Below are positions 31,960 through 42,356 of a stretch of 64,000 bases of DNA, in pieces. The stretch is from Yersinia vastinensis. Its GTDB lineage: Bacteria > Pseudomonadota > Gammaproteobacteria > Enterobacterales > Enterobacteriaceae. Every line of letters begins with the position of its first letter. The first letter of the stretch is position 1. The stretch is taken from contig NZ_CACVAF010000003.1 in the NCBI RefSeq assembly GCF_902726565.1, forward strand, positions 1 through 64,000, given 5' to 3'. The notes under the pieces were generated by a model that saw only the letters and a program-made list of their open reading frames with translations, made no database searches and had not been told where the DNA came from. The position numbers were made by a program, and so were the translations under genes.

Positions 31960-32904
31960 ATGTCAAGACAAGATGAGCAAAGGTTGCTGGTGAAGATAGC
32001 CACGCTGTATTACACCGAAGGAATGAAGCAATCCGAAATTGCTGACAGCTTACATTTATCTCAATCTTTTGTGTCCCGTGCGATAACCCGTTGTGTCAAA
32101 GAGGGTGTGGTGAAAATCAGTGTTATCCAGCCCGCTAACATGTTTATTGGTATCGAATCACAGATTCAAAAACATTATGGTATTGACCAGGCCATAGTGG
32201 TAGATATTGCGGATGACGCCAGCCCCGTACAAATCAAGCAAGCTATCGGTTCTGCTGCCGCCCACTATATGCAAACCAGTATTCGACCAAACGATATGGT
32301 GGGTATCTCTTCTTGGAGTAGCACTATCCGAGCGATGGTGGATAATCTTCACCCACTTAACATCAAAGCCAGCGGCGTTATCCAATTATTGGGCGGTGTT
32401 GGCCCCAACGGTAACGTTCAAGCCACATTATTGACCCAATCATTGGCAAACATTTTAAATTGTCCTGCCTACTTACTACCCGCACAAAGTATTGAACGTT
32501 CAACAGAAGATCGTGCACGTTTGATCTCCAGCGGTGAAGTTGCTGATGTAGTGAATAAATTTGCAGAAGTGGATCTGGCGTTAGTCGGTATCGGCGATCT
32601 AGAGCCATCACAACTGCTGAAAAATTCCGGTAACTATTACCATGAAGAGATGCTGAAATTATTGGCCGAGCGCGGTGCGGTAGGTGATTTATGCCTACAC
32701 TATTTTGATGCGGCAGGTAACGCGGTGCTCAGCGATGAAGAAGACCCAGTCATCGGTATGTCATTGCCACAATTGCGCGCCTGCCCACGAGTTGTGGCGC
32801 TAGCGGGTGGGGTGGGTAAAAGTGCAGCTATTCGCGGCGCACTAACGGGTCACTATATAGATGTCTTGATTACCGACAGATTAACTGCCGAGACACTGTT
32901 ATAG
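31960..32904 (+). CDS. SorC/DeoR-family sugar-responsive transcriptional regulator
   Basis: 314-residue regulator with an N-terminal helix-turn-helix (about 20-50: QSEIADSLHLSQSFVSRAI) and a C-terminal sugar-phosphate-binding domain of the SorC type (GISSWSSTIRAMVDNL, GVGKSAAIRGALTG). Members sense phosphorylated sugars. It lies at the 3' end of the leftward sugar operon (33088-42275), convergent with it, so it is the natural candidate to control that operon; this is inference from position. Confidence 0.85.
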   Translation: MSRQDEQRLLVKIATLYYTEGMKQSEIADSLHLSQSFVSRAITRCVKEGVVKISVIQPANMFIGIESQIQKHYGIDQAIVVDIADDASPVQIKQAIGSAAAHYMQTSIRPNDMVGISSWSSTIRAMVDNLHPLNIKASGVIQLLGGVGPNGNVQATLLTQSLANILNCPAYLLPAQSIERSTEDRARLISSGEVADVVNKFAEVDLALVGIGDLEPSQLLKNSGNYYHEEMLKLLAERGAVGDLCLHYFDAAGNAVLSDEEDPVIGMSLPQLRACPRVVALAGGVGKSAAIRGALTGHYIDVLITDRLTAETLL

Positions 32905-33087
32905 CGAAATCACATTGCAGAGCCAATAGATTTCAGATTGTAGGTAGGTGGCAACTGAATGGGCACAAGGTGTTGGGATAACTCAATGGCTAGGGTAAAC
33001 CATGTCAGTCGACAACTCTGCATCTTGAAAGACGGCAATACAGTCAACCGCACCTTCCTTGGCGCGGGATAATAGTGATGCGAGCGC
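32905..33087. other. intergenic region between the SorC regulator and the isomerase-like gene
   Basis: 183 bp between convergent genes. I see no clear terminator hairpin or gene. Its composition resembles interspersed Yersinia intergenic sequence, but I cannot name a family. Confidence 0.3.
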
Positions 33088-34509
33088 TTACTTCGCATGC
33101 CAGTAGCAATCAACACCGAGGTATTTGCTGAATGCTTCTTGCAGCACTTGAGCGGTGGCTGAATGATTCATCGCCACATGGTGTTCAAAGCCATTATTGC
33201 AGATATGAGTAAGTAAACTTTCCAATTGTGGTACTTCGACCACGGCACGACACCCTACAGTGTCTAATTCATCACTGACAGAGCGCCCCTCTCCTACATA
33301 AGCTCGCACTTGACCGGTAAAATCATCGGAGGATAGGCGGAAATAAGTCAATGGCCCAGACTTCATTCGGCCATGGACAGCACCACAGGTATTTTCACAC
33401 CCCACGGTGGTGCCAATAATATCAGCAGTACCCATGGTCGAACTTTCCAAACTTTCACTGGCAAAGTTACCGCAATGGAACAGTACGCACTTATCACGTT
33501 CAGCACCAAAGTTATTATTCCAGTCAGCAATAGAGGCCGGCGCCAGCGAACAACTAGCCAGTGCATACATCGATAATGCTCCCATAACATCCACTTCACA
33601 GGCACTTGGCATGAGTTGCCCGGACATCACACTCATGATGGAGCAAACGTTAATACCCAGATTTTGTTGCAATGATGTCCAACACTGCATGGCAGTCGTA
33701 TCAATATCGTTGGCGATAATCCATTCACTGATAACCACAAATAATTTTGCCATTTTGTGCAATTTATCTTGTGGAATAGCACTGGTATCTCCATTGGCTT
33801 TTAACAATGCCAGTTTTTCACCAACACGAATGTCGTTATCACTGAGGTTGGCAACCCGGAAAAAAACTTCAGATAAGTCGAGGGTTTCAACCGTAATGCC
33901 TAAATTCTCTAACAGTTTCTCGCTGTAGCGCACGGTATTAAAGTTTGTTGGGCGAGCACCTATAGCCCCGACTCGTACCCGTTTCATGGCATGAACAACG
34001 CGGCATAGCTGCACAAACTGTTCAACATCACGACTGAAAATCTCGCTGTTTAAGCTGCAAACATGCTGTTTCGTCAAAGTGAATGGGATACCGTATTGGC
34101 GCAGGTTGTTACAAAGTGAGATTTTGCCGCAGAAACTATCCCGGCGTGTCGCCAACCCCATTTTATCCAGTGCATCCTCTTCTGCCTGTACCAATACTGG
34201 CACTTTAAGACCAGAAAGACGGATGGCGTCAGAGACACTTTTTTCGTCACCAAAATTGGGCAAAATAACCACGACACCGTGGATTTCTTCACTGTGCTTA
34301 CGGAATAATTCGGCACATACTTTAGCATCGCGCCAATTTTCTACTCCCCCCAATGGGGTTTGCTCTTCATTGAGCATAATAGTGTTAATTTCCAAGCGGT
34401 CGAACAGTGCCTGAGCATCACGGCGCGCGTCTGCCACGAGATAGCTGGGGAAGAACCCCCGATTGCCGATAATCACAGCAAAAGTTAACTTACGAGGTAT
34501 TGCTGACAT
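33088..34509 (-). CDS. L-fucose/L-arabinose isomerase family protein
   Basis: 473-residue member of the fucose/arabinose isomerase fold, distinct from the fucI of this window (592 residues). Candidate metal or catalytic residues are Glu in ACEVDVMGALS (about 310), Asp/Asn in ADWNNNF and His in HHVAMNHS near the C terminus. Last gene of an operon with an FGGY kinase, split transketolase and ABC transporter, so it probably isomerises the imported aldose to the ketose that the kinase phosphorylates. Substrate is not shown by the sequence; D-apiose is the best guess from pathway logic. Confidence 0.75.
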   Translation of the reverse strand: MSAIPRKLTFAVIIGNRGFFPSYLVADARRDAQALFDRLEINTIMLNEEQTPLGGVENWRDAKVCAELFRKHSEEIHGVVVILPNFGDEKSVSDAIRLSGLKVPVLVQAEEDALDKMGLATRRDSFCGKISLCNNLRQYGIPFTLTKQHVCSLNSEIFSRDVEQFVQLCRVVHAMKRVRVGAIGARPTNFNTVRYSEKLLENLGITVETLDLSEVFFRVANLSDNDIRVGEKLALLKANGDTSAIPQDKLHKMAKLFVVISEWIIANDIDTTAMQCWTSLQQNLGINVCSIMSVMSGQLMPSACEVDVMGALSMYALASCSLAPASIADWNNNFGAERDKCVLFHCGNFASESLESSTMGTADIIGTTVGCENTCGAVHGRMKSGPLTYFRLSSDDFTGQVRAYVGEGRSVSDELDTVGCRAVVEVPQLESLLTHICNNGFEHHVAMNHSATAQVLQEAFSKYLGVDCYWHAK

Positions 34510-34529
34510 ATGCTTACTCCTAGTGTGGG

Positions 34530-42275: not shown

Positions 42276-42290
42276 TATTTTTCTCCGCAT

Positions 42291-42322
42291 TGAATATATA
42301 TTCACTATTAAATTTATATTCA
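42291..42322 (-). promoter_or_regulatory. candidate operator of the sugar operon
   Basis: TGAATATATATTCA (42291-42304) is a perfect 14-bp palindrome and its half TATATTCA recurs at 42315-42322, 18 bp away. The pair sits just after the predicted transcription start and before the binding-protein gene, so a bound repressor would block the promoter. Confidence 0.55.
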
Positions 42323-42327
42323 ATCTA

Positions 42328-42356
42328 ATAATACAAACGCCCCACGCCTTGTCCAA
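42328..42356 (-). promoter_or_regulatory. sugar operon promoter
   Basis: On the minus strand TTGGAC (42351-42356) and TATTAT (42328-42333) are separated by exactly 17 bp, about 55 bp upstream of the binding-protein start. Confidence 0.7.

Follow-up and report, generated by a model that had tools for sequence, protein, structure and literature searches.

Apiose is a branched sugar that plants build into pectin and into many of their glycosides. Its degradation in Pectobacterium by a transketolase pathway (ApsI, AplK and AptAB) was reportedly described by Carter in 2018, and that report is the source of the reaction chemistry used here. In the available excerpts of a 2026 paper (PMC13001218), growth on D-apiose is given for cluster-bearing Escherichia coli strains of sequence type 131 (ST131) and STc14, for E. 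fergusonii and for P. carotovorum, and not for K-12; apiose growth is reported there only for the Pectobacterium and Escherichia clusters. The same excerpts give the cluster of E. coli SE15 (ST131) as apiose query (aplK ECSF_RS02700, aptA ECSF_RS02710, aptB ECSF_RS02715). They describe the Escherichia cluster as lacking apsI, with two putative oxidoreductases in its stead, and leave open how apulose is formed in Escherichia strains without ApsI (PMC13001218). Here we describe an operon from a 64,000-nucleotide stretch of Yersinia vastinensis DNA (contig NZ_CACVAF010000003.1, positions 1 to 64,000; hereafter the window) that joins AptA- and AptB-type subunits to a protein with a Fucose_iso_C domain.

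We consider it very probable that this operon serves the uptake and degradation of D-apiose, with the Fucose_iso_C protein (hereafter the isomerase) carrying out the first step. The pathway is a known one and the operon a new variant of it, the isomerase being the part that differs. Our case is built from what sequence and comparative genomics establish, namely the gene set, its orthology and linkage, the swap of the isomerase and a recurring palindrome; every catalytic step and substrate named below is predicted.

Results

A probable D-apiose operon with an exchanged first enzyme

The list of open reading frames (ORFs) and the Pfam and NCBIfam domain searches give nine genes. Eight lie on the minus strand, in the order binding protein, DUF2291 protein, two-domain ATPase, permease, transketolase N subunit, transketolase C subunit, FGGY kinase and isomerase; a regulator gene on the plus strand converges with them. 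The original prediction, made from the letters of the window, had described the same eight one-strand genes, convergent SorC regulator and domains, and needs correction at the start of the binding protein and for a 195-bp gap that follows the permease. In the mechanism that we propose, a ribose-type ATP-binding cassette (ABC) importer would bring in D-apiose, the isomerase would convert it to D-apulose, the FGGY kinase would phosphorylate D-apulose at O4 to D-apulose 4-phosphate, and AptAB would carry out ketol transfer to glyceraldehyde 3-phosphate, yielding xylulose 5-phosphate and dihydroxyacetone phosphate. Tandem TGAATAWWTATTCA palindromes before the importer genes and aptA would be the sites of action of the SorC-type regulator.

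The original prediction had proposed a D-apiose transketolase pathway and a comparison of its enzymes with AptA, AptB and AplK homologues. Against the SE15 counterparts that comparison gives 78.3% identity for AptA, 68.8% for AptB and 45.6% for the kinase; the regulator is 68.8% identical. The two-subunit transketolase is orthologous to AptA/AptB, and its thiamine motifs (GDG...N and GIAEQ) are present. This supports the proposed pathway, since AptAB are close orthologues of the pair in an E. coli cluster that the excerpted text of PMC13001218 connects with growth on apiose.

Two other loci, L040 (genome G126) and L041, carry a TIM-barrel isomerase beside the kinase, where the window has its isomerase. 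The TIM-barrel protein of L040 is almost identical to PDB entry 3ktc, which we take to be a Pectobacterium atrosepticum protein; because of this near-identity we infer that it is ApsI and that L040 and L041 are Pectobacterium-type clusters. Window and L040 are 88% identical in AptA, 79% in AptB, 71% in the kinase, 82% in the binding protein and 83% in the regulator, and L040 is about as close to the window as are the nearest isomerase-bearing clusters from outside Yersinia (L071, L072, L136). In FastTree trees, one built from 46 AptA+AptB pairs and one from the kinases, ApsI-bearing clusters fall at three places among those with the isomerase. The window's cluster and L040/L041 are sister groups (support 0.825 for AptAB, 0.953 for the kinase); L051, from a genome (G238) with apsI on another contig, groups with Pantoea and Mixta (0.900) and its kinase with that of L100 (0.971); and L053, which bears ApsI, lies near the tree base, several other supports being low. 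From this placement it follows that the first-step enzyme has been exchanged, the transketolase and kinase having been kept, as have the importer and regulator where they were compared. The earlier caution that the isomerase might come from a family other than the described one was right: a Fucose_iso protein occupies the position held in L040 and L041 by a TIM-barrel enzyme. That the substrate could be new, as was also suggested, is not favoured, because the isomerase swaps with ApsI while the remaining pathway stays alike.

Distribution of the first-step enzymes

We searched 394 genomes of the same order (E ≤ 1e-50 for the isomerase, E ≤ 1e-70 for AptA and E ≤ 1e-60 for ApsI). The isomerase occurs in 11, ApsI in 4 and AptA in 21, of which 17 have AptA at an identity of at least 76% and four (G324, G319, G346, G290) at 45–48%. 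We set those four aside; the gene set of G324 is nearer the SE15 type (SDR2 80%, kinase 61%), and G319 and G346 hold a second isomerase clade. The 17 close-AptA genomes split into 11 with the isomerase, 4 with ApsI and 2 with SDR1, the first short-chain dehydrogenase/reductase (SDR) of SE15, which was sought in those 17 only; none has two. All 11 isomerase genomes fall among these 17 (hypergeometric 1.6e-17, without phylogenetic correction), and since they come from 5 genera they are not independent events.

Our named loci are the best 80 of 364 isomerase relatives in a species collection, taken with up to 10 kb on each side and less at contig ends. Within these stretches the transketolase C subunit is found in 73 loci, the N subunit in 70, the kinase in 73 and the binding protein in 63, and neither apsI nor sdr1 in any of the 80. 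Seven loci have no C subunit nearby (L089, L102, L112, L113, L134, L139, L140). Whole-genome searches show that the five enterobacterial ones carry AptA elsewhere (78–81%) and that L140 has a 52% match. In L080, L081 and L138 the reading frames of AptA, kinase or isomerase look broken.

A predicted aldose–ketose isomerase

The isomerase is predicted to be a metal-dependent aldose–ketose isomerase. Its only Pfam match is PF02952 (Fucose_iso_C), over residues 343–471, so that in this search the 473-residue protein has the C domain alone of the N1, N2 and C set of FucI. When 13 members were aligned with E. coli FucI by MAFFT, the FucI metal ligands E337, D361 and H528 (PMC6894278, as excerpted) fell on E305, D329 and H444, which are present in 13 of 13, and the Glu–Asp spacing is 24 in both proteins. 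E305, D329, H443 and H444 are invariant in 44 sequences (alignment A2). We presume the ligands to be E305, D329 and H444, or H443 in place of H444, as both histidines are invariant. The C domain and this Glu–Asp–His site point to membership of the fucose/arabinose isomerase superfamily. The sugar-recognition residues named for FucI gave no useful mapping onto the isomerase. Sequence searches of the PDB with phmmer and with a profile, at E up to 1, returned no relative.

No match to the TIM-barrel protein of L040 was found in the Y. vastinensis genome at E 1e-60, so that an ApsI-type isomerase (TIM barrel, AP_endonuc_2) is absent at that threshold. The open-access literature, a search that left Carter 2018 and its supplement outside, gave no fucose isomerase linked with apiose; within the same bounds the term 'apiose isomerase' appeared only for apsI (in the excerpts of PMC13001218).

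Kinase

The FGGY kinase is probably an AplK orthologue, as it groups with the L040 kinase in the tree. It is 71% identical to that kinase, which lies beside a TIM-barrel isomerase, and 39% identical to another kinase of its own genome. It does not reach the curated cut-off of either glycerol kinase (GlpK) model, with 479.6 bits against 498 and 474.7 bits against 590.35. Two motifs are presumably in touch with glycerol in GlpK, NQRE and one of the GDQQAAL type. The window kinase keeps NQRE and has GDSHAAL where the GlpK-like kinase of its own genome has GDQQAAL; both features are common to the window kinase and the three other apiose-cluster kinases compared. A site of this kind would be suited to apulose, whose branch end resembles glycerol.

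Two kinase types occur among the 73 named loci that have a kinase (45 and 27, plus one distant). Between the window kinase and its counterparts in Rahnella, Sodalis and Klebsiella identity is 45–47%, as against 70–85% for the other operon genes apart from that for DUF2291 (42–44%). We considered this divergence as a sign of another substrate and dropped the idea, because the window kinase type also occurs beside ApsI.

Importer

Over 284 residues the binding protein shares 73.2% identity with PDB chain 5ibq/4ry0. The 5ibq structure is reportedly that of a Rhizobium etli protein solved with alpha-D-apiose. A relative (E ≤ 1e-60) is present in 259 records of a plasmid collection, Klebsiella, Rahnella and Sodalis among them, and we opened three further records from that search. 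The Pararhizobium relative (70.6%) lies close to OiaX, annotated as 3-oxo-isoapionate-4-phosphate decarboxylase, which is an apionate-pathway enzyme. That of Roseibium (73.1%) has as neighbours a four-carbon acid sugar kinase and a protein of the RuBisCO large-subunit family. The relative in Rhizobium sp. SL42 (70.0%) is near genes for a TIM-barrel protein, transketolase N and C subunits and an FGGY kinase, in that order, the TIM-barrel protein being 58.5% identical to that of L040. In 3 of the 3 records opened, the genomic neighbourhood would thus tie a ribose-type importer to apiose. DUF2291 is matched in 60 of the 63 named loci that have the binding protein.

The plasmid collection also holds a linear 11.6-kb Klebsiella pneumoniae 'plasmid' (L005, 1-11645) with an apiose operon, one Rpn-type gene and little else; this record may be a misnamed contig.

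A shared operator-like palindrome

Copies of the palindrome stand before importer genes, aptA and the regulator gene, whether the cluster is of the isomerase, ApsI or SDR kind. With a spacer of 4 and at most 1 arm mismatch it is present in 30 of 44 regions (shuffles: mean 0.7, largest 4), a count that is partly circular, because the motif was picked from k-mers of those same 44 regions. Divergent genes also have overlapping regions here, and that of the window's binding protein ended at a misplaced start and so was scored as a miss. Better tests are the 80-locus count, the whole-genome count and a lone apsI site. Of the 80 named loci, 73 carry an operator that departs from the palindrome in no more than 1 position; the site is exact in 69, and 65 have two sites 18 bp apart (at most 3 mismatches). 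The corresponding counts in Markov controls for 40 loci are 1, 0 and 0. In the 4.52 Mb of the Y. vastinensis genome the sole exact site is the one just upstream of the binding-protein gene, and its partner, with 2 mismatches, is 18 bp away. A single mismatch is found at ten other places, the reversed control giving 6. In genome G238 an exact site precedes the listed ORF start of the lone apsI by 28 bp, and the SE15 cluster also carries an exact operator. Within the window, 7 sites have at most 2 mismatches, against 1.2 in shuffles; 3 of them are away from the operon promoters.

The tandem operator sits between a promoter-like match (42328-42355) and the ATG of the binding-protein gene, although promoter-like matches in this upstream region are not more frequent than in shuffles. 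We infer that the regulator would bind these palindromes.

Apiosidase linkage

The isomerase of Pantoea ananatis LMG 2665 (L134, identical with locus L048) lies apart from aptAB-kinase. It is divergent there from a gene for a sugar transporter, a gene for an apiosidase-like protein (PF13204, E 2.7e-92) and a weak, sub-cut-off ROK match. L097, L107, L110 and L123 have the transporter–apiosidase cassette too, placed beyond the regulator within the operon region. Apiosidase and isomerase are 1.8 kb apart in L134 and 4.3–4.6 kb apart in the other four. BLAST with the Pantoea proteins thus finds an apiosidase-like gene less than 5 kb from the isomerase in 5 of the 80 named loci. As a base rate in the same order, PF13204 is above the family cut-off in 6 of 388 genomes and at E ≤ 0.001 in 10 of 388; at E 1e-20 it is in 3 of 394, a threshold too strict for two weaker matches. 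These are a PF13204 gene (E 3e-19) close to the isomerase in L141 (Phycisphaerae, isomerase 56%, one of the 80) and another (E 3e-16) near a second-clade isomerase in Monoglobus (L163).

The apiosidase linkage, the shared operator and the neighbours of the binding-protein relatives (OiaX, a RuBisCO-like protein, and a TIM barrel with transketolase and kinase) likewise support the apiose reading of the original prediction.

Weighing the alternatives

Several observations weigh against an apiose operon begun by this isomerase. The binding protein and kinase of the SE15 cluster are just 45% and 46% identical to those of the window, the transketolase parts of Rhizobium sp. SL42 are only 45.8% and 37.4% identical, and the database name of 5ibq is probable ribose binding protein, no more. 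The PF13204 search found no apiosidase in the Y. vastinensis genome; of the 11 isomerase genomes in the order sample only one, G097, has an apiosidase, and the other 5 of the 6 genomes with an above-cut-off apiosidase are without the isomerase. Seven of the 80 loci have no operator (L081, L089, L102, L134 from Pantoea ananatis, L139, L140 and L141), and L139 (Phycisphaerae, isomerase 53%) has a different neighbourhood and no AptA match in its genome at E 1e-30. The metal ligands were mapped by a MAFFT alignment and equal spacing, and profile comparison of the isomerase with E. coli FucI is weak: its one matching stretch, of 94 columns at 10% probability, does not lie at the active site. Finally, in Pseudescherichia vulneris (L112) and Escherichia sp. 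ESNIH1 (L113) the isomerase has its own importer and regulator, and an SE15-type cluster (AptAB, kinase, SDR pair) lies elsewhere in each genome. The variants are therefore not strictly exclusive; the arrangement fits an isomerase that feeds a shared kinase and transketolase. Each of these two genomes (L112/L154 and L113/L155) holds two apiose-type importers and two different first-step systems.

Might the isomerase act on some other sugar, such as another branched or short one, with AptAB and the kinase accepting its product? An isomerase of a family other than ApsI and a kinase so distant from that of SE15 would allow it. The identities to the TIM-barrel-bearing L040 (AptA 88, AptB 79, kinase 71, binding protein 82, regulator 83%), the apiosidase linkage and the shared operator speak against it, and we regard a different sugar as unlikely. 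Less likely still is that the pathway is for apiose and the isomerase has another job, with an unlinked enzyme doing step one. The coexistence of the isomerase cassette with an SDR pair in the L112 and L113 genomes is in keeping with such a division. Yet the Y. vastinensis genome has no ApsI or SDR1 match at the thresholds used (SDR2 was not searched genome-wide), the isomerase adjoins the kinase where L040 and L041 have their TIM-barrel enzyme, and its metal ligands are kept.

The domain annotations of the isomerase suggest two further pathways, both of which we set aside. Its sole NCBIfam match is the sulfoquinovose isomerase model SftI (NF048012; 111.8 bits, E 3.2e-32), and split transketolases occur in the sulfo-transketolase pathways for sulfoquinovose. 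The score is nevertheless far under the cut-off of 700, the apiosidase and OiaX links point elsewhere, and we know of no place for an FGGY kinase in that route, so that we give this idea next to no credence. A second L-fucose, D-arabinose or L-arabinose pathway using the split transketolase is suggested by the Fucose_iso_C domain, and an L-fucose isomerase also acts on D-ribulose (PMC6894278, as excerpted). It is nonetheless very improbable: the isomerase matches the C domain alone, Pfam finds no aldolase among the nine genes, and the same window holds a seemingly complete L-fucose operon (about 47688-56108) with a 592-residue FucI of N1, N2 and C domains, so that the isomerase is not needed for fucose. 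That operon comprises an Fe-dependent alcohol dehydrogenase, a class II aldolase, a major facilitator superfamily (MFS) transporter, FucI, an FGGY kinase and a DeoR-type regulator.

Layout of the locus

The features of the locus are collected in Table 1. By ORF coordinates ATPase and permease overlap by 4 bp, the transketolase subunits by 8 bp and DUF2291 and ATPase by 1 bp. Gaps of 2 bp separate the C subunit from the kinase, 20 bp the kinase from the isomerase and 74 bp the binding protein from DUF2291. The gap between permease and transketolase N subunit is 195 bp (37809-38003) and contains two operator-like sites; aptAB-kinase-isomerase may therefore have its own promoter. The listed binding-protein ORF (41334-42356) starts at a TTG that overlaps the best promoter-like match. 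Aligned orthologues (alignment A3) fit a start at the ATG at 42275, with GCGGAG in front, so the listed start is likely about 80 bases too far out. Nine named Yersinia loci (L062-L070) have the identical gene set in the same order, with isomerases 97–100% identical; the arrangement is thus not chance.

Table 1. Features of the predicted D-apiose operon in the window
Feature	Position	Strand	Basis
Periplasmic sugar-binding protein	41334..42275	-	Peripla_BP_4; 313 aa from ATG 42275
DUF2291 periplasmic lipoprotein	40642..41259	-	PF10054, E 7.6e-38
RbsA-type two-domain ABC ATPase	39119..40642	-	ABC_tran in two stretches; sugar-importer models
RbsC-type permease	38004..39122	-	BPD_transp_2; ribose permease model 272 bits against cut-off 398
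Transketolase N subunit, AptA type, 276 aa	36978..37808	-	Transketolase_N; GDG...N motif from residue 151
Transketolase C subunit, AptB type, 314 aa	36041..36985	-	Transket_pyr + Transketolase_C; GIAEQ motif, Glu = residue 56
FGGY kinase, presumed D-apulose kinase (AplK), 502 aa	34530..36038	-	FGGY_N/C
Fucose-isomerase-family protein, presumed D-apiose isomerase, 473 aa	33088..34509	-	Fucose_iso_C E 2.1e-35
SorC/DeoR-type regulator with sugar-binding domain	31960..32904	+	PF04198 Sugar-bind; convergent
Tandem operator-like site: exact palindrome TGAATATATATTCA 42291-42304 and second site 42309-42322	42291..42322	.	sequence match
Pair of operator-like sites before aptA; spacing 18 bp, 2 mismatches in each	37841..37872	.	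sequence match

An MFS transporter gene (30539-31873) lies on the same strand as the regulator gene and 86 bp upstream of it. It is kept in the nine named Yersinia loci, and a relative (70%) stands beside the L095 operon too. Directly upstream of the apiose operon is a dimethyl sulfoxide-reductase-like molybdoenzyme set (42654-47421) consisting of a Nitrate_red_del chaperone, a DmsC anchor, a 4Fe-4S protein and a molybdopterin oxidoreductase.

Discussion

The second isomerase clade extends the comparison to distant bacteria. Listeria monocytogenes (L162, 3983-9326) and Monoglobus (L163, 5857-12088) each have a module of a second-clade Fucose_iso protein, transketolase N and C subunits and a glycerol-kinase-like kinase. 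Isomerases of this clade are about 25% identical to that of the window and 69–73% identical to one another. The gene order of L162 matches lmo1031-lmo1035 (PMC2996996, as excerpted), and the 'glycerol kinase' of the Listeria module may be a sugar kinase. We think it rather probable that these proteins form a so far unassigned class of D-apiose isomerases with the fucose isomerase fold, in two clades spread over Pseudomonadota, Bacillota, Planctomycetota and Chloroflexota; that they are the commonest first apiose step in the order (11 of 17 genomes, against 4 for ApsI); and that they belong to a cassette swapping freely within one conserved regulon.

If so, one bacterial order would hold three non-homologous answers to a single step, the Fucose_iso type being the commonest in the sample. 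Many enterobacterial and Pasteurellaceae genes that are at present called 'L-fucose/L-arabinose isomerase family protein' would gain a defined test substrate, as perhaps would such genes in Listeria and gut Clostridia. ApsI could no longer be used as a marker of apiose use.

How does the Yersinia operon compare with what is known? With FucI, the PF02952 protein of fucose metabolism, the isomerase shares the C domain and, in the alignment, the positions of the Glu, Asp and His metal ligands; it differs in length (473 against 591 residues) and in having no N1 or N2 Pfam match. The Listeria and Monoglobus modules follow the same four-enzyme logic, and Monoglobus adds an apiosidase-like gene; they differ in that a beta-glucoside phosphotransferase system gene follows in Listeria and RbsAC-like genes are near in Monoglobus. 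With the Pectobacterium pathway the operon has in common the two-subunit transketolase, the FGGY kinase, the DUF2291-containing ribose-type importer and the SorC-type regulator, whereas ApsI is absent and the Fucose_iso_C protein takes its place. With the E. coli ST131/STc14 cluster it shares AptAB, the regulator and the exact operator; by contrast, an SDR pair is proposed for the first step there (in the excerpts of PMC13001218), and the binding protein and kinase are 45% and 46% identical.

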